Assembly: GCA_025359945.1 (NCBI GenBank)
Contig: JANYDD010000051.1
Location: forward strand, 1 to 64,000
Source: Bdellovibrio sp.
Lineage (GTDB): Bacteria; Bdellovibrionota; Bdellovibrionia; Bdellovibrionales; Bdellovibrionaceae
Length of the DNA stretch: 64,000 bases
Direction: 5' to 3'
Shown here: positions 7,319 through 37,405 of the stretch, piece by piece
Position numbering within the stretch: position 1 is the stretch's first letter
Layout of the letters: every line of letters begins with the position of its first letter
Notes under the pieces: model-generated
The model's database searches: none
Told to the model about the DNA's origin: nothing
What the model saw: the letters and a program-made list of their open reading frames with translations, nothing else
Translations under genes and position numbers: made by a program

Positions 7319-7382
7319 TGGATAGTCACGCAATACAGCATGAGTATCCATGACTATCCATGCTGTATTGCGTGACTATCCA
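7319..7382. repeat. Perfect 24-bp inverted repeat with 16-nt loop
   Basis: The arms 7319-7342 and 7359-7382 are exact reverse complements; the loop 7343-7358 is AGTATCCATGACTATC and itself repeats the word TATCCATG found in the arm. It is not followed by a T-run on either strand, so it does not look like a standard terminator. It may be a cruciform, a protein-binding palindrome or a remnant of a mobile element. Confidence 0.9.
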
Positions 7383-24044: not shown

Positions 24045-24851
24045 ATGACAAAAATAATTCGAAGCTTTTTGCCTTTATTATTTTTGTTGTCCTCTTGTGA
24101 AAGTGTTTTAGAAAAAATCTATAATCGTGGCTTGTCACAAGTAGAAGCTAAAAACTATCTCGAAGGGTTAGAGGATTTCGACAAAGTCCTAGCTAGAGCC
24201 CCAGAATCCGAATTGGCGACAAAGGCTGCACACGAGGCCTCGAAGATTTCATTGTTTGAAACCAAAAATTTTGAAAAAGCGATTGGTTATTTAAAGCACC
24301 TGGTACTAAATTCGAAAGACCCATCAGAGAGATTAGAAGCCCAAAGATCCATCGCAAAAATTTATTTTGAACATCTGCAAAATTACCCTAAAGCCATTCA
24401 GGAAATGAACCGTGTCCTTCCATTATTGATAGACCCTGACGAAAAAGAAAAAATAAAAAGCAGTTTGGCGCGAAGCTACTACTACCAAAGTAATTTCTCG
24501 CAAGCTTTGGCTGAATGTGAAGAATTGATCCAAAAGTCTAAAAACGAATCATTGATATTTGAAATGGTTGTTTTAAAAGGAAATATTTTTTTAGCGCAAA
24601 AAAAATTAGAAGAGGCCGCGAAGCTTTTTAAAAGGTTACTGATTAAATATCCAGAAAGATCAGTCAAAGAGAATGTCGCTTTAACTCTAGCCGTAGCTTA
24701 CGAGGAAATGAAAGATTATACGCAATCCATCGAAGTTCTTGAAACCATCAAAAAACATCACCCCGTACCAGAATATATTGATATGCGGATCCGCAGACTG
24801 ACCGAGCGGAAAAAAAACTTACCTGGCGCAAAAGGAAGCTATCGTAAATGA
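24045..24851 (+). CDS. TPR-repeat lipoprotein
   Basis: This 268-aa protein starts MTKIIRSFLPLLFLLSSC, a lipoprotein signal with the lipobox cysteine at residue 18. The rest is a series of helical TPR-like repeats (YLEGLEDFDKVLARAPES, FEKAIGYLKHLVLNSKDPS, YPKAIQEMNRVLPLL, FSQALAECEELIQKSKNES, LEEAAKLFKRLLIKYPERS, YTQSIEVLETIKKHHP). It resembles BamD/YfgM-like scaffolds but no specific family can be assigned. It overlaps atpZ by 4 bp, so it is co-translated with the membrane ATP synthase genes. Confidence 0.8.
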   Translation: MTKIIRSFLPLLFLLSSCESVLEKIYNRGLSQVEAKNYLEGLEDFDKVLARAPESELATKAAHEASKISLFETKNFEKAIGYLKHLVLNSKDPSERLEAQRSIAKIYFEHLQNYPKAIQEMNRVLPLLIDPDEKEKIKSSLARSYYYQSNFSQALAECEELIQKSKNESLIFEMVVLKGNIFLAQKKLEEAAKLFKRLLIKYPERSVKENVALTLAVAYEEMKDYTQSIEVLETIKKHHPVPEYIDMRIRRLTERKKNLPGAKGSYRK

Positions 24852-25042
24852 AAAATCCTTTTTTAGCTTTTACGGGAATCGGGTTTGAACTGATCGGCTT
24901 GATAGTCCTGGGGGTTTGGGGCGGCGGATGGTTAGATCAATTCACCTGGATAAACAAATTGGGCGTTCCGGCGGGCGTGTTGCTTGCCTTGGTGATTTGG
25001 TTTGTGCACATTTTTAAACTTTTACAAAAGATCAATAAATGA
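24848..25042 (+). CDS. atpZ: AtpZ/AtpI-family small membrane protein
   Basis: This 64-aa protein has two membrane spans (about residues 6-27 and 40-58), FTGIGFELIGLIVLGVWGGGWLD and PAGVLLALVIWFVHIFKLL, as in the AtpZ family, which assists assembly or ion supply of the ATP synthase. It is coupled to the TPR gene upstream and to atpI downstream (4-bp overlaps on both sides). Confidence 0.82.
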   Translation: MKNPFLAFTGIGFELIGLIVLGVWGGGWLDQFTWINKLGVPAGVLLALVIWFVHIFKLLQKINK

Positions 25043-25386
25043 AGTTGGTTCTAAGGCATCTATTGTGGATGCTGATTTCCACTTTTGCAGTTTACGCCTT
25101 GATGGGGCCCCGTCAGGGTTTAAGTTTTGGAATAGGTTACTTTCTACTTTTTGGAAATCTGTCGATTTTGACACTGGTGTGGTCGATTGCAATTCGGAAA
25201 AATCTGGTTGCTCTCTCGTTTCTAATTATTGTATTTAAATATGCGATCTTGGCAGGTGCGGTTTACTGGATCTTGGAATTGCCCGGGATCCAAGTGTTTT
25301 GGGTTTTCTTGGGGATTCTCAATTTTGTTCTGGTTACGACCTTTTTAGGAATAGTCCTGGTCAAAACTGATTCTGCTGTAGCGTAA
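25039..25386 (+). CDS. atpI: ATP synthase protein I; last codons replaced by IS insertion
   Basis: This 115-aa membrane protein has about four spans (LLWMLISTFAVYALMG, FGIGYFLLFGNLSILTLVW, LVALSFLIIVFKYAILAGAVYW, VFWVFLGILNFVLVTTFLGIVL). AtpI acts as a c-ring assembly factor. The reading frame runs into the IS256-type element: the present end TDSAVA-stop uses a TAA inside the left terminal repeat (25384-25386). Removing the IS and one target copy restores TDSAENT-stop (116 aa), so the protein is almost unchanged by the insertion. Confidence 0.85.
   Translation: MKLVLRHLLWMLISTFAVYALMGPRQGLSFGIGYFLLFGNLSILTLVWSIAIRKNLVALSFLIIVFKYAILAGAVYWILELPGIQVFWVFLGILNFVLVTTFLGIVLVKTDSAVA
25369..25376. 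repeat. Target-site duplication, left copy
   Basis: GATTCTGC lies directly outside the left IS end, within the last codons of atpI; it is identical to 26724-26731. Confidence 0.9.
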
Positions 25387-26723
25387 GAAAAACCGTGTCC
25401 AAGCAGTTGCGTCAGAGTGACGCACGAAAGGACATGAGCTATGCAATTGAGCATGGGAATTATCAAAGTCGAGATCAAAATACCTGAGCTGGTGAGAGCG
25501 ATCGAATCGTTCAAAGAAAATAGATTGGCGGCGCTGGAGCACCTCACGGTCGAAGTAAAAAGCAGTGTGAGCCAAATGTTCAACCAGCTTTTGCAGACAG
25601 AGATGTCCGTGTTTCTTGGTCAGCCTGATCAGAGCGACAATAAACGAAATGGTTATGAAGAGCGAGAGTATGCGCTGAAAGGTGTTGGTTGCGTTCGCAT
25701 TAGGATGCCCGTGGATCGCAAGCGAGATTTTAAAAGTGTGGTCATTCCATCGAGAGAGCAAATTGATCCACGATTGAAGGAAGATCTTGCGGTACTTCAT
25801 TTGGCCGGAATCTCGAACCGAGTATTGGCGATGATCTCAAAGCGTGTTTTAGGTGTGGAGGTCTCAACGGACACGGTGACGAAATCACTTACTAGCGTTG
25901 AAGACAAGGCGCTGGCGTGGCTTGAGCGTCCGCTGGAAAAGAAATACTGGGCGCTATTTATCGACGGCACCAACTTCAAAATGCAACGGCGAAGTAGCAC
26001 CGAGAAAGAGCCAGCCCTGGTTGTTCTGGGCATCGACAGCAGTAATTGCATGAGTATATTGGCTATGCAGCCGGGCCATAAAGACAGTGCTGAATGTTGG
26101 ACCGAGGTTTTTAAAGATCTTGTGGTGCGGGGATTGAATCCGCAGTCGGTGCAAATCGGAATCATGGATGGCTTGCCAGGTCTTGAAACCGCGTTCCGAG
26201 AAAGTTTTGTGAATGCAAAAACCGCGAGATGTTGGGTGCACAGCCTTCGCAATGCGATGGCGAAAACGCCAGAACGGCTTCGTCTAGCGTTTAAAAAACT
26301 GTCCCATCAAGTCATGTATGCCAAGAGTGAAAATGATGCCAGAGAGGCTTTTAAGGGTTTAAAGTCAGCCATGGGCAGCGATGCCGACCGAGCTGTTCGT
26401 TGTCTTGAGAAAGATCTTGAATCGTTACTCGTTCATTACTCTTTTGATCAGAAATTTTGGCGAACTCTCAGAACTACGAATCCAATCGAGAGGGTCAACA
26501 AAGAGCTCAAGCGCAGAACCAAGTCCATGGAGACCGTCGGCGAGAGAACTTTGAATGTCGTCTTGGCGTTCGTTGCAATGAGGCTTGAATATCACTGGCA
26601 GCGGGTTCCAGTTGACAGCGCTCATCTTGAAAAGTTAGGAAGCAGAAAGAAAAATCAGATCGAGGCCGTTGTCGCCGATCTGTTGCATTAAAATCAACCA
26701 GACACGGGAAATCTTACGCTACC
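25377..26723 (+). mobile_element. IS256-family insertion sequence, 1347 bp, with 8-bp target duplication
   Basis: The ends are imperfect inverted repeats: the outer 23 bases match at 18 positions and both contain GTAGCGTAAGA. The element is flanked by the 8-bp direct repeat GATTCTGC at 25369-25376 and 26724-26731, the size expected for IS256 transposition. It holds a single complete transposase ORF in the same direction as the surrounding atp genes. Undamaged ORF, ends and duplication indicate a recent insertion. Confidence 0.95.
25441..26691 (+). CDS. IS256-family (mutator type) transposase
   Basis: This 416-aa DDE transposase has catalytic residues D175 in FIDGTNFK, D243 in GIMDGLPGLE, and E350 in TTNPIERVNKELKRRT, with the C/H-rich ARCWVHSLRNAM between them, all typical of the Mutator/IS256 family. 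The ATG at 25441 is preceded by AAAGGA. No frameshift or stop is present, so the element should be active. It is the only transposase seen in the window. Confidence 0.95.
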   Translation: MQLSMGIIKVEIKIPELVRAIESFKENRLAALEHLTVEVKSSVSQMFNQLLQTEMSVFLGQPDQSDNKRNGYEEREYALKGVGCVRIRMPVDRKRDFKSVVIPSREQIDPRLKEDLAVLHLAGISNRVLAMISKRVLGVEVSTDTVTKSLTSVEDKALAWLERPLEKKYWALFIDGTNFKMQRRSSTEKEPALVVLGIDSSNCMSILAMQPGHKDSAECWTEVFKDLVVRGLNPQSVQIGIMDGLPGLETAFRESFVNAKTARCWVHSLRNAMAKTPERLRLAFKKLSHQVMYAKSENDAREAFKGLKSAMGSDADRAVRCLEKDLESLLVHYSFDQKFWRTLRTTNPIERVNKELKRRTKSMETVGERTLNVVLAFVAMRLEYHWQRVPVDSAHLEKLGSRKKNQIEAVVADLLH

Positions 26724-26731
26724 GATTCTGC
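26724..26731. repeat. Target-site duplication, right copy
   Basis: GATTCTGC lies directly outside the right IS end. It continues into TGAAAACACCTGA, which supplies the original end of atpI. Confidence 0.9.
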
Positions 26732-26777
26732 TGAAAACACCTGAAGCGGTTTTTTTTAAAAGTTTAGGAAATTTTTT

Positions 26778-27488
26778 ATGTCATTTTCACTGACCAGTTT
26801 AATCCCCGGCGTCGGCCCAGAAAACGCTCATATTGCAACTGCGGGTATTGTAACTGCTGCAGTATTGGGAATGGGCCTTCTGGCAAAAAAATCCCTAGCA
26901 ACGGGTCCTGACACGGCTGAAACACCTGCAGGGTCTTTTGGTTTAAAGGCAATTTTCGAATTTCTGACCGAATTCGTTCAGGGTTTGGTTGACATGGTTA
27001 TCGGAAAACACGGAAGAAAATATATTCCGATGTTTGCCGCGATTTTTACTTATATTTGGGCCAATAATTTAGTGGGAATTATCCCTGGAATGACACCGGC
27101 AACAGAAAATATCAATACCAGCTTGGCCATGGGTATTTTTATGTTTTTGATTTACAATTATTACGGATTTCAAGAGCACGGTTTTAAATATTTGCAGCAT
27201 TTCGTGGGACCAAGTCTTGGAAACTTGGTCTTGGCAATTTTGATCACGCCGATTATCGCTGTTGTCGAGATTATTTCAAACATGATGAGACCAATTACTT
27301 TGGGCTTGCGTCTTTCGAACGTCATGAAGGGCGATCACACTGTTGTTGGAGTTTTCACGGACCTAGCGCCGCTGATTGTGCCGATCCCTTTTTATGTGAT
27401 GGGACTTTTAGTTTGTTTTTTACAGGCGATGGTTTTTACTTTGCTTTCGATGGTTTACATTTCTTTAGCAACCGCGCATGATCACTAA
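26778..27488 (+). CDS. atpB: ATP synthase F0 a subunit
   Basis: This is the stator channel subunit through which ions reach the c-ring, 236 aa with five to six membrane spans. The family signature MMRPITLGLRLSNVMKGDH near residues 175-193 contains the essential arginine, and FLQAMVFTLLSMVYI follows near the end. It begins 47 bp downstream of the second target copy of the IS, with TTAGGA as a probable ribosome-binding site. Since the insertion, its transcription must cross or start within the IS. Confidence 0.95.
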   Translation: MSFSLTSLIPGVGPENAHIATAGIVTAAVLGMGLLAKKSLATGPDTAETPAGSFGLKAIFEFLTEFVQGLVDMVIGKHGRKYIPMFAAIFTYIWANNLVGIIPGMTPATENINTSLAMGIFMFLIYNYYGFQEHGFKYLQHFVGPSLGNLVLAILITPIIAVVEIISNMMRPITLGLRLSNVMKGDHTVVGVFTDLAPLIVPIPFYVMGLLVCFLQAMVFTLLSMVYISLATAHDH

Positions 27489-27558
27489 AAATTTTGTCAA
27501 AATAGTAATAAGTCTGTAAGTCTTATTCCGAATGAAACTGAATAAAAAGGAGTTCACA

Positions 27559-27906
27559 GTGAAAAAAACAGGTTCTAAATTATATCCGATGGCTTTGGCT
27601 GCATCTGCCGCCTTGAGTACTTTAATGGTTTGTGCTTCTGCCGTTGCTGAAGAAACCGCGGCTACCGCTGGAATGGGACACGACAGGGGTTTAATAGCTA
27701 TCGGTGCTGGTTTAGCAATTGGTCTGGCCGTTATCGGTGGAACTCTTGGTCAATCTAAAGCCGCGGCTGCCGCACTTGATGGAATCGCACGAAATCCATC
27801 AGCTCAGCCTAAAATTCAAACTGCGATGATTCTTGGTCTTGCGCTGATTGAGTCTTTGGTTGTACTTGCTTTCTTGATCGCATTTCCGCTTCAAGGAAAA
27901 ATCTAA
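27559..27906 (+). CDS. atpE: ATP synthase F0 c subunit with cleavable signal peptide
   Basis: This 115-aa proteolipid is the rotor ring subunit. The GTG at 27559 is preceded by AAGGAG (27547-27552), which fits better than an ATG at 27532. Residues 1-30 form a Sec-like signal peptide (PMALAASAALSTLMVCASAVA). The mature part is the usual hairpin: helix 1 AIGAGLAIGLAVIGGTLGQS, polar loop ARNPSAQPKIQ, helix 2 MILGLALIESLVVLAFLIAF with the ion-carrying glutamate. A Gln in helix 1 and Ser after the Glu are discussed under findings. Confidence 0.94.
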   Translation: MKKTGSKLYPMALAASAALSTLMVCASAVAEETAATAGMGHDRGLIAIGAGLAIGLAVIGGTLGQSKAAAAALDGIARNPSAQPKIQTAMILGLALIESLVVLAFLIAFPLQGKI

Positions 27907-27982: not shown

Positions 27983-28034
27983 AAGATCGGGTGAATTAAA
28001 CTCCGACCAAAGACTCTCTCCATGTAAGAATGCC

Positions 28035-28113
28035 TAAAATCTAGGCCTTCAAATGCGAGTTCCGCGAGGCGTACTTCCGATGACTGTTCGAGTATTTGAA
28101 GGCCTAGATTTTA
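28035..28113. terminator. Perfect 20-bp inverted repeat between convergent genes
   Basis: The arms 28035-28054 and 28094-28113 are exact reverse complements, with a 39-nt loop. It sits between atpE (plus) and the carbonic anhydrase gene (minus), where a bidirectional terminator would be expected; T-rich tracts are weak on both sides, so it may have another role. Confidence 0.5.
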
Positions 28114-28143
28114 AGCTTTCCCTTTTAAGGAACGAACGGGCTG

Positions 28144-28872
28144 TTAGTACCCAACGCTAGAAAGACCGCGGTTGCCGGTGTAGAACTCTACTTTTCCGGT
28201 GGCAATGTCGTACATAGCGCCGATGACTTGGACTTTTCCGTCTTTAACTAGCCCTGCGATAATTGGGCTTTGGGCTTCGATAGCTGCTACTTGGGCTAGA
28301 ACATTTTCTCTTGAAACTTGATCTATGTGGGATTCGTTTTTCGGGTCAAACCCTGCGCTCTTTTCTTTTTTTATTTTATCTACTGAAGGGTTTATTTTTG
28401 TCAGCAGCTGAGTCAAACTTCCAAGTTTTACGTCTTGGCAGGCGCCGGCCACTGCTCCGCACGAAGTGTGACCGAGAACCAAAACTAGTTTAGAACCTTT
28501 AACTTGAGTGGCGAACTCTAAGCTTCCTAAAATATCTGGGTTGATCACGTTGCCGGCGACTCGGGCTACGAAAATATCTCCAAGTCCTTGATCAAAAACC
28601 AGCTCAGGGGGCACTCGTGAATCTAAGCATGAAACAATTGCCGCGTAAGGGTGCTGTCCATGGGCGCCTTCTTTCACTTGCTCGATGAAATTTTGTTTTA
28701 GCATTTTTCGGCTGGTGAAACGGACATTTCCCTTTCTTAATTCCTCGATCGCAATTTGCGGCGTGGTGATTTTACTTTCATCTACTTTTTCAAAACGTGA
28801 GTTGGAGCTTTCCGAGGCCTGATGGGTCTTGGCCTGAACCAGCGCACTTGCAAAAACAAATGCAGAAATCAA
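28144..28872 (-). CDS. Exported beta-carbonic anhydrase; signal peptide interrupted by amber codon
   Basis: This zinc enzyme interconverts CO2 and bicarbonate. The zinc ligands are present: Cys and Asp in VSCLDSRVPPE, then His and Cys in LGHTSCGAVAGAC. The open frame begins at a TTG (28872), ISAFVFASALVQAKTHQ, which is only the second half of a signal peptide. Upstream in the same frame, an ATG at 28918-28920 with AAGGAG six bases before it reads MKQ-stop, then KNYFKFAFSSVSLISAF. A TAG at codon 4 (28909-28911) thus separates the natural start from the enzyme. It may be a mutation, a sequencing error, or translated weakly from the TTG. Confidence 0.85.
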   Translation of the reverse strand: MISAFVFASALVQAKTHQASESSNSRFEKVDESKITTPQIAIEELRKGNVRFTSRKMLKQNFIEQVKEGAHGQHPYAAIVSCLDSRVPPELVFDQGLGDIFVARVAGNVINPDILGSLEFATQVKGSKLVLVLGHTSCGAVAGACQDVKLGSLTQLLTKINPSVDKIKKEKSAGFDPKNESHIDQVSRENVLAQVAAIEAQSPIIAGLVKDGKVQVIGAMYDIATGKVEFYTGNRGLSSVGY

Positions 28873-31572: not shown

Positions 31573-32550
31573 TTAAACAGGATGATTAATTTTGACAAAA
31601 GAATCCTCTTTTTTACTTTCAAGCCAATTCTTCAGCTGCTTCTGAAAAGCCCGGTCAAAAAGCTTTGCGCGAAGTTCGTCTTTTTTCTTATCACACAAAG
31701 GATCTCGAACGCTTTTTTTCGCAAGAACTTTTAAGATGTAAAATCCATTCTTTGCTTTTGTTACTGGCGACAGTTGTCCAACATCTACATCCTTTATAGA
31801 GGCCTCAAGTTCGGCAGAGAACTCTCCGGATTTAAATGTTCCCAAAAGTCCGCCAGCGGTAAAATTGGGATCCTCGCTATACCTTTCAGCAACGACTTCA
31901 AAATTTTCGCCGCCTTTAAGTCGCTCGTAAGCTGCCTTGGCCCGTTCTTGGGCGCTGGACTCGCCGCCTTTTTTTGGATTGAAAAATAAATTGGCCACAG
32001 TAAATTCCTGGACTGCATTTTTCACTTGCGGAATCGTTCTTTGGCATTCCGAATAGATTTCATCTTCTGAGATCCGCAACCTAGTGGTGATTTCGGTCTC
32101 GATCAGGGAAGTCTTTTCTTTTTTTGAGCGAATCAAGTTTTGATACTCGGCTTGGTCCATTCCTTGATTTTTGAGGGCCACAAAAAGCTCTTCTTTTTTC
32201 ATTTGATTGCGTTTGGCGATTTCGCGAATTTCATCATCCACGGCGGCCTGGGTGATAGATAAATTAAGTCGCTTTATCTCAGAATCAAAAATTTTTTCGT
32301 TAATTAAATAATCAATTTGAGATTTTCGACTGGTTTTTAAGTCTTCAGCTTTTAGGTTAAGCAAAGAAAACTCGTCCAGCGGTTTCTCCTGGCTAAGGGA
32401 TTTTTCAAGATTTTTGATATCGGACTCTAAAATGATCTCGTTGTTCATGATGGCAACAATTCGATCAACAATTCGATCAGCAGACCACGCCGCCTTGGCC
32501 AGGAAAACAGAAGGTAAAAAAAGGGCTAAAGATAAAATTGGCTTTTTCAT
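31573..32550 (-). CDS. surA: SurA-like periplasmic peptidylprolyl isomerase
   Basis: This 325-aa protein starts with a signal peptide (MKKPILSLALFLPSVFLAKAAWSA) and a SurA-N chaperone region (DRIVAIMNNEIILESDIKNLE), followed by one parvulin domain (about residues 185-285: FTVANLFFNPKKGG, YSEDPNFTAGGLLGTF, GQLSPVTKAKNGFYILKVL). It should assist folding of outer-membrane beta-barrels. It has one parvulin domain versus two in E. coli SurA, so the exact orthology is not certain. Confidence 0.85.
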   Translation of the reverse strand: MKKPILSLALFLPSVFLAKAAWSADRIVDRIVAIMNNEIILESDIKNLEKSLSQEKPLDEFSLLNLKAEDLKTSRKSQIDYLINEKIFDSEIKRLNLSITQAAVDDEIREIAKRNQMKKEELFVALKNQGMDQAEYQNLIRSKKEKTSLIETEITTRLRISEDEIYSECQRTIPQVKNAVQEFTVANLFFNPKKGGESSAQERAKAAYERLKGGENFEVVAERYSEDPNFTAGGLLGTFKSGEFSAELEASIKDVDVGQLSPVTKAKNGFYILKVLAKKSVRDPLCDKKKDELRAKLFDRAFQKQLKNWLESKKEDSFVKINHPV

Positions 32551-32584
32551 GACTTTCTACCCTAGTGAGCTTAGGTGGTCGACG

Positions 32585-32629
32585 TCAAGACGGTTCAAGA
32601 CGGTTCAAGACGGGTTAGGACGGGTCGTA
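32585..32629. repeat. 10-bp tandem repeat at the end of a PPIase gene
   Basis: On the minus strand, the unit CCGTCTTGAA is repeated in three successive copies after the stop codon, and CCGTCC-TAAC continues the period into the last codons (GAC CCG TCC TAA). It fills most of the 64-bp gap before the surA-like gene. Confidence 0.7.
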
Positions 32630-33619
32630 TTTCTTTTCTTCCTTGTGGGGCTCCTTGCCAGGAGCTGGTTTTGACCCCCGAGTCTCGATACTGATTGTTT
32701 GGATCAATTCAGTGTTTTTTAAAACTTTGCTGGCGCGAATTCTTTGGTCTAACCATGACAAAAAAACCGCTTGTTCTTTTTTCGCCGCTAAGAGGGCCTG
32801 AATACTATTTTTAACTTCTTCAAATTGGGCGACGCCAGGTGCAGCTTTTCTTTCCACTTTAAAAAAATGAAAGCCGTAACTGCTTTCTAAAAGCGAACTA
32901 GGCACACCAATGGAAAGTGAGAAAGCTTTATCGAAAATATCTACTTCCCCCTTCTCTACCCAGCCGACCAAACCCCCGTTTTTAGCTTCGGGAGACACCG
33001 AGTATTTGCTCGCCAATTTGGCAAAATCCCCTTTTTTGACTTCTTCTTTTAAGGCTTCAGCTTTGGTCAAATCGTCGACTACAATCTGCCGAAGATAAAC
33101 TCGTTCCTTTCTTCGATACTTGTCCTTTTGGTCGGAATAATACTTTCTTAAATCTTCCAAAGACGGAGGAGCTATTTTTTCAGAGATCTTTTTATTTACC
33201 TTTTGATCCAGAAGGGTCTTTTCGACCAACTTTCGCCAATCGGTAAAAGATATATTCTCTTCGGCCAATTGTCTTCGAAATGAAAGATCATCCGGGTAGT
33301 TGGCCCGAAGATTATCGATCTCGGCATTGAGTTCCGTTTCGCTCACCGTAATATTTTGAATTTTTGCAAAATCCTGAACTAGACTTTGCATAATAAAATC
33401 TCGAACCACGGCTTCCTTAGCGCGCTGAACGTTAAGCGGGTCCTTAACAGAAAGTGCATCAAAATCTTTCAGTCGTCGCGAAAGCTTTTCGGCAAAATCT
33501 TTACTAGTCAATACATAGTCGTTCACTTGGACGATGGTCTGAGAGGAAATTTTTGAGGTGTTTAACGTGCATGCCGAAATGAACAAAAAAGCTGAAAAAG
33601 AAAATTGAGTCAGCTTCAC
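32615..33619 (-). CDS. Parvulin-type peptidylprolyl isomerase, lipoprotein
   Basis: This 334-aa protein begins MKLTQFSFSAFLFISAC, with a lipobox cysteine at residue 17, so it is likely anchored to a membrane like PrsA. An N-terminal SurA/PrsA-type helical segment is followed by a parvulin domain around residues 180-270 (RVYLRQIVVDDLTKAEAL, KYSVSPEAKNGGLVGWVEKGEVDIFDKAF, GFHFFKVERK). It is the second of three consecutive parvulin genes, overlapping the first by 4 bp. Confidence 0.87.
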   Translation of the reverse strand: MKLTQFSFSAFLFISACTLNTSKISSQTIVQVNDYVLTSKDFAEKLSRRLKDFDALSVKDPLNVQRAKEAVVRDFIMQSLVQDFAKIQNITVSETELNAEIDNLRANYPDDLSFRRQLAEENISFTDWRKLVEKTLLDQKVNKKISEKIAPPSLEDLRKYYSDQKDKYRRKERVYLRQIVVDDLTKAEALKEEVKKGDFAKLASKYSVSPEAKNGGLVGWVEKGEVDIFDKAFSLSIGVPSSLLESSYGFHFFKVERKAAPGVAQFEEVKNSIQALLAAKKEQAVFLSWLDQRIRASKVLKNTELIQTISIETRGSKPAPGKEPHKEEKKYDPS

Positions 33620-34488
33620 TTGCTAATTTTTGAATTCACTTTGATCGTGTATTTTTTCTTTAACGCATCAAAAAAAGTATCATATTTTACTTTTCGTTTC
33701 TCGTCATACACACCCAAACGAATCTTTCTTTTGTCGGCGTCGTTATAAGGCCGTTTGTCGATCAACTTGACGATATGAAAACCATATTGAGTTTCGATCA
33801 ACCCCTTAACTTCACCCTTTTTCATTCCCAACAAAGTTTGGTAATAATGCGGCACTAAATCGTTTTTTGACATGTATCCGACATCGCCGCCAAAGTTTTT
33901 AGTAAACACATCATCGGTGTACAGCTTAACTAGTTCAGCAAAAGGCCTTTTGCTTACTTTAACTTCGGCGAAAACTTCCTCGGCGCGCTTTTTAGCAGTT
34001 TGTTTTTGGGACGCTGTCGATCCTGCAGGAACCTCAAATAAAATATACGAGTATCGAACCTCAGGATATTTTTGATAGTAAGCCTTCATTTCGGCTTCGG
34101 TGATTGCTGGAATATTTTCGAACTGTGGGCCTAACTCAGTTTCTAAAAACCCCGCGTACAAGGCTTGCTTAACCATAAACTGGACTTTTGGATTTTGAGC
34201 AACTTTCTTCTTTTCGGCTTCTTGCAAACCGATTTCTCGGCGCACAATTTCTTCAATAAATTCTTCTCGGGTGGGTGGATTAACAAAAGCCTTTTCCACG
34301 ACGTAGTTAAATTCTTTGTTAAATTCGTCTAATGTAATTTTTCGATTTCCGGCTTCTATGTAAACCGGCGAGGTGTCGGGCCCTGGAGTTTGTGCTTGAA
34401 TTTGCACACCGATGAATAGGTTTAAAAGAAATAAACCGGCCGTTAGTTTTGGAAAAGATTTTGTAGCGGAATCCATGATGTGTTGCAT
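33616..34488 (-). CDS. Parvulin-type peptidylprolyl isomerase, exported
   Basis: This 290-aa protein has a signal peptide at about residues 12-32 (KLTAGLFLLNLFIGVQIQAQ) and a single parvulin domain (about 150-260: RYSYILFEVPAGSTASQ, KLYTDDVFTKNFGGDVGYMSKNDLVPHYYQTLLGMKKGE, QYGFHIVKLIDKRP). It is the first gene of the PPIase-PPIase-surA-pdxA-phosphomutase run and therefore probably closest to the promoter. A likely role is folding of envelope proteins. The start could be the second ATG (MDSATKSF). Confidence 0.87.
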   Translation of the reverse strand: MQHIMDSATKSFPKLTAGLFLLNLFIGVQIQAQTPGPDTSPVYIEAGNRKITLDEFNKEFNYVVEKAFVNPPTREEFIEEIVRREIGLQEAEKKKVAQNPKVQFMVKQALYAGFLETELGPQFENIPAITEAEMKAYYQKYPEVRYSYILFEVPAGSTASQKQTAKKRAEEVFAEVKVSKRPFAELVKLYTDDVFTKNFGGDVGYMSKNDLVPHYYQTLLGMKKGEVKGLIETQYGFHIVKLIDKRPYNDADKRKIRLGVYDEKRKVKYDTFFDALKKKYTIKVNSKISK

Positions 34489-36980: not shown

Positions 36981-37405
36981 CCGTTTAGGCCTTTCTGTTT
37001 TCTGAGTGTGCAGTTTCGAACCTTCGATTATGTCGAACTGTGGTCATTTTGCAATCCGCTTAGCACAGTCGATGTCTAGGTTAACACTTCGCAATGTTAA
37101 AATGTTTAATCCTCCAGACGCTAGACAGTTCAATCAATGAAAAGTTAATATTTAATAGGGTCTTTGAAAAGTAACTGTGGGAGGGAAGCTTTGTGAAAAA
37201 ATTCTGGCCTAGGCATTGGCAGAAACCTTAGCCAGCAACCCTAACCAGCAGCTGCGGCTGCCGACTGACAACGAACGTCCAGAACTTTTTCACAAAGTTT
37301 TTAGCTCCCGGATAGTTTTCAAACACCCTCAAGGAATCCATTCCATCAATTTTGATTCAATATTGAATCAGTGTTGATTCCTGACTTATTTCTTTCGGAG
37401 AAATC
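36981..37405. other. Divergent intergenic region between etfB and sdhC
   Basis: No gene seen. It must contain promoters for both directions. Its central part (37157-37329) is a 173-bp element made of two 51-bp imperfectly complementary arms, described separately. Confidence 0.7.
37157..37329. repeat. 173-bp element formed by long imperfect inverted repeat
   Basis: The arms 37157-37207 and 37279-37329 are complementary with few mismatches and small bulges. Blocks include AGGGT, TTTGAAAA, GGGAG, CTTTGTGAAAAA and TTCTGG, and their complements. The 71-nt loop contains a smaller hairpin around CAGCTGCGGCTGC. It could be a miniature transposable element, a structured RNA or a strong terminator-like structure. 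Confidence 0.75.

Follow-up and report, generated by a model that had tools for sequence, protein, structure and literature searches.

Within a 64,000-nucleotide stretch of a Bdellovibrionaceae genome (the window, which here means the whole of the DNA analysed), a complete insertion sequence of the IS256 family lies in the last four codons of atpI. It is likely that a single element from outside the lineage was pasted into the 3′ end of this gene in the same orientation as the operon, and that it is tolerated there, with atpB and atpE presumably supplied by read-through and the transposase perhaps kept at a low level. The anatomy of the element, its target duplication, its intact transposase, the empty site that is restored when the flanks are joined, and the absence of the insertion from the relatives inspected can all be read directly from the DNA. 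What an earlier, sequence-only reading had reported at this level is real; its functional story, a natural experiment in the disruption of an essential operon, is overdrawn. The features are collected in Table 1.

Table 1. Features of the insertion and its surroundings (positions in the window)
Feature	Position	Strand	Basis or remarks
AtpZ/AtpQ-like small gene	24848-25042	+	PF09527, 24.4 bits, just under the cut-off of 26.6
atpI as now read, 115 aa, last residues and stop from the IS	25039-25386	+	Position and likeness to the gene in relatives
Left target-site duplication, GATTCTGC	25369-25376		Repeat search, end comparison
IS256-family insertion sequence, complete, 1347 bp	25377-26723	+	Repeat search, NCBIfam match, relatives' ends, end comparison
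Left terminal inverted repeat	25377-25399	+	Outermost base T, against G in the right end and in relatives
Predicted leader RNA hairpin	25394-25436	+	Folding prediction, supported by nine related elements
tnp, 416-aa IS256-family DDE transposase	25441-26691	+	D175/D243/E350, C264..H267
Right terminal inverted repeat	26701-26723	-	Repeat search, end comparison
Right target-site duplication, GATTCTGC	26724-26731		Repeat search, end comparison
atpB, F0 subunit a, single copy	26778-27488	+	AGGA ribosome-binding site of its own, not within the IS
atpE, F0 subunit c, single copy	27532-27906	+	

Structure of the insertion sequence

The sequence-only reading had described a complete 1347-bp element with matching ends and an exact 8-bp duplication. 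Its coordinates proved exact in a repeat search and an end comparison, and the same 8 bp stand on both sides of the element. The ends (TGTAGCGTAAGAaaaaCCGTGTC / GGTAGCGTAAGAtttcCCGTGTC) carry the terminal inverted repeat of about 20–30 bp that is expected of IS256 insertion sequences. In an inverted-repeat search the 22-nt terminal arms are 82% complementary (18/22), and mismatches in the first 23 bases of the two ends are confined to a 4-bp island and the outermost base, which is T instead of G. Related elements in other Bdellovibrionota genomes, with 57–66% protein identity, have ends of the form GGTAGCG, GGTGGCG, or GGTCGCG, and two of them are flanked by exact duplications of their own, of 8 bp in L058 (GTTTGACC) and of 9 bp in L059 (GTTTTATTG). 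These ends and duplications show that the boundary and the duplication length are right, and that the T at the left tip is a substitution rather than a misplaced boundary. The duplication falls within the 8–9 bp expected of the family, and the chance of an exact 8-bp match at fixed boundaries is 4^-8, or about 1.5e-5. Alternative boundaries with a duplication of 9 or 10 bp (the flanks share GATTCTGCTG) were rejected, as the relatives and the right end begin with GG.

The transposase had been described as an intact DDE enzyme, and the open reading frame is indeed complete, with all catalytic residues present. It matches the Mutator-type transposase family of Pfam (PF00872, 203.3 bits against a cut-off of 21) and passes the cut-off of the NCBIfam IS256 equivalog (NF033543, 262.2 bits against 150). 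The residues D175, D243, E350, and C264/H267 are invariant across 10 elements with identities down to 26%, and the DDE and C/DxxH residues correspond to those of ISCth4 (D175, D241, E348, and C262/H265; PMC7780238). The structure of the ISCth4 transposase (6xg8, 6xgw, 6xgx) is also the sole PDB match, at 111.6 bits over residues 16–382.

The insertion site in the ATP synthase genes

Joining the flanks gives an empty site in which atpI encodes 116 aa ending VKTDSAENT, with a gap of 33 nt to atpB, in agreement with the restored frame ending TDSAENT that had been noted earlier. With the element in place the frame continues GTA GCG TAA, and the protein ends VKTDSAVA, so that three residues (ENT) are exchanged for two (VA). 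The earlier description of a nearly intact AtpI with a stop supplied by the element, and of subunit a and c genes downstream, is thus borne out. AtpI has no match in Pfam or NCBIfam, and its name rests on its position and on likeness in relatives. On the 5′ side, gyrA, a TPR gene, the AtpZ-like gene, and atpI overlap or lie 9 nt apart. The genome is a draft (2.74 Mb in 106 contigs, 96% complete), which is the one ground for supposing that the junctions are an assembly chimera. Such an artefact is hardly credible, since the duplication is found at both junctions, the flanks rejoin in frame, and an insertion sequence present in a single copy does not confuse assemblers.

The F0 a/c pair stands apart here, the remaining ATP synthase genes being absent after atpE. 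Directly after atpE, on the minus strand, is a gene for a carbonic anhydrase family protein (28144-28872, NF011765). Between the two, a strong hairpin (28020-28125, z about −6.4) has 27-nt arms that are 93% complementary, and an 84% copy of it occurs in the same genome (L047, G000:C42:13188-13282). In these copies the loop (TGCGAGTTCnGCGAGGCGTACTTC) is kept, and the stem sequences differ yet stay complementary. This genome has just the two copies, and 65 further genomes of the family have none.

Elsewhere in the window there are a perfect inverted repeat of 24 bp around a 16-nt loop (7319-7382) and an imperfect one of 51 nt (76%) around a loop of 71 nt (37157-37329), the latter adjoined by an imperfect palindrome at 37345-37378. 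Three SurA/PpiC-type peptidyl-prolyl isomerase genes lie in a row on the minus strand (31573-34488). Rfam and tRNA scans of the 64,000 nt found nothing.

Expression of the downstream genes

The sequence-only reading held that atpB and atpE are severed from the promoter upstream unless the element reads outward. The transposase gene runs in the same direction as the two genes, no terminator-like site is found on the plus strand from 25377 to 26778, and RNA across the junction between the element and atpB folds no better than its shuffles (z −0.27). On these results a block is not supported, and the idea of a disrupted essential operon is overstated. The upstream genes are so closely spaced that transcription from them can read through, and read-through is the simplest supply of atpB and atpE.

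It is unlikely that the element itself drives the two genes, either from an outward-facing promoter within its right end or from a hybrid one. There is precedent for such an arrangement, as ISCth4 and IS256 have a −35 in the right terminal inverted repeat and IS256 forms hybrid promoters with it (PMC7780238). The right end here has CTTACG at bp 6–11 (26713-26718), in the same place as the ISCth4 −35 and matching TTTACA at 4 of 6 positions. However, the hexamers 16–18 bp further on (AAACAC, AACACC, and ACACCT) are not −10-like, and the IS256-type combination of a −35 in the repeat and a usable −10 in the flank is absent. Furthermore, the best promoter-like match in 26641-26777 scores 8/12, which was equalled in 241 of 300 shuffles, and promoter-like sites in the scan of the region are at about chance level, where the scans were for sigma-70-type sites.

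A different concern is polarity. Poor translation of the transposase would leave about 1.25 kb of RNA untranslated, and Rho-dependent polarity may then reduce the supply of atpB and atpE. Taken to its extreme, the element would be strongly polar and the two genes underexpressed, the insertion being deleterious and due to be lost, or the genome coming from a subpopulation. The predicted masking of the transposase ribosome-binding site, which would leave that stretch of RNA open to Rho, is in favour of this; we regard it as very unlikely, because no terminator-like site was found and because a respiring cell with no second copy of the genes for subunits a and c would probably not survive a severe block.

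The favoured reading, a tolerated insertion with read-through, implies the following course of events. The element would have entered by the copy-out/paste-in reaction usual for the family, duplicating 8 bp and landing in the direction of the operon. In model bacteria AtpI helps in assembly and is not essential. The insertion would be tolerated because the change to AtpI is so small, because the protein is dispensable elsewhere, and because transcription from upstream would cross the co-oriented, terminator-free element into atpB and atpE, which would be translated from ribosome-binding sites outside it. Transcripts reading in from atpI would at the same time include the left-end strand; by masking the ribosome-binding site of the transposase gene, this strand would hold the transposase at a low level.

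A predicted hairpin in the transposase leader

In the predicted fold, CGUGUCC of the terminal inverted repeat strand (25394-25400) and GGACAUG at the transposase ribosome-binding site (25430-25436) form the two arms of a stem, which enclose an inner hairpin at about 25406-25425. The leader of this element has a z of −2.8, and leaders fold better than the shuffle mean in all nine subgroup elements (z −2.3 to −4.7). The predicted unpaired fraction of the ribosome-binding site here is 0.32 with the first 26 nt of the element and 0.75 without them, and in most elements of the subgroup the site is likewise predicted to open when these are removed. Pairing is stronger between arms of the same element than between arms exchanged among elements (−11.6 vs −9.5 kcal/mol, p 0.0012); this element and seven others fit the pattern, and L034 is the exception. 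Leaders of distant IS256 elements are structured too (z −0.6 to −7.7), which means that structure by itself does not set this subgroup apart.

The subgroup might conceivably share a conserved riboregulatory leader, although we think this rather improbable. The transposon end would mask the ribosome-binding site, so that insertions in active operons are silent for transposase yet transparent to read-through, and AtpI ribosomes stopping at the TAA (25384-25386), ahead of the hairpin arm that starts at 25394, could tune transposase translation.

Age and origin of the insertion

A search of the genome for further copies, suggested by the sequence-only reading, found none of the same kind, the next best matches being at 65–66%. 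The genome also has one further complete member of the subgroup, together with fragments of the transposase family, and with so small a number the insertion does not belong to a burst. The second element (L041 1501-2784, G000:C18:85872-87155) has 65% protein identity and reaches the contig end exactly with ...GACGCTACC.

About 30 relatives, all from other genera, were inspected, and none carries the insertion, where the same element at the same site in all of them would have marked it as old. In most of those that could be read atpI is close before atpB (mostly −11 to +41 nt apart); for a few relatives a simple open reading frame rule gave no clean atpI, and the comparison is not exhaustive. 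The absence places the insertion after the split from those genera, and no more. The event had been called recent, which is plausible. The exact duplication, the intact reading frame, and the foreign G + C content (48.1% in the element vs 39.2% upstream and 42.8% in atpB-atpE) favour a fairly late arrival from outside the lineage, though the nearest relative available for dating it is from another genus (AtpB 64% identical). Moreover, with a substitution already present at the left tip, the insertion is not necessarily very young. An old, domesticated insertion, fixed in the genus and by now integral to the operon, is possible in that all relatives compared belong to other genera; it is nevertheless doubtful in view of the exact duplication, a transposase with all its catalytic residues, the near-matching ends, and the foreign G + C content.

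Two scans of named genome contigs found no relatives of the transposase and one usable AtpB relative, from Bdellovibrionaceae UBA2316 (L044). The stretch before atpB in L044 is the same as in L025, a genome from the family of this organism, which places the organism in Bdellovibrionaceae. A scan of viral contigs likewise found no transposase relatives, plasmid IS256 transposases are all below 60% identity (about 26–31% among the matches listed), and literature searches turned up no publication on the element or on its insertion here.

Taken together, this is a complete, co-oriented, terminator-free IS256 insertion, probably of late date, at a tolerated place. It provides a clean case of a co-oriented element between an ATP synthase helper gene and single-copy genes for subunits a and c, a position that is evidently tolerated, and adds a Bdellovibrionota subgroup of IS256 whose ends are defined and whose leader is predicted to form a hairpin. 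The insertion itself is ordinary insertion sequence biology and leaves the general picture unchanged.

Comparison with known systems

IS10 and IS50 are shielded against outside transcription, and the pairing of the left-end strand with the transposase ribosome-binding site appears to resemble this known shield. RNA structure over the transposase ribosome-binding site has been documented for ISPpu9 of Pseudomonas putida (PMC8450116), and mRNA structure acts in IS200, according to work cited within the same paper. The structure predicted here would share with the four systems an RNA fold covering the transposase ribosome-binding site, although ISPpu9 is a different insertion sequence; the leader pairing would be a known kind of control.

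A close likeness is to the subgroup in Bdellovibrionota genomes (L041, L054-L059, and L034). Those elements occupy other insertion sites, and several are broken or at contig ends, but they share 57–66% protein identity, GGTAGCG-like ends, the leader hairpin over the transposase ribosome-binding site, and, where both flanks are known, duplications of 8–9 bp. ISCth4 is longer (1503 bp vs 1347 bp), has low sequence identity to this element, and differs from it in that the ends here are without good promoter hexamers as measured against the E. coli consensus. The two are nevertheless alike in having transposases related by sequence, with the DDE and C/H motif at equivalent spacing, terminal inverted repeats, and target duplications of 8 bp.
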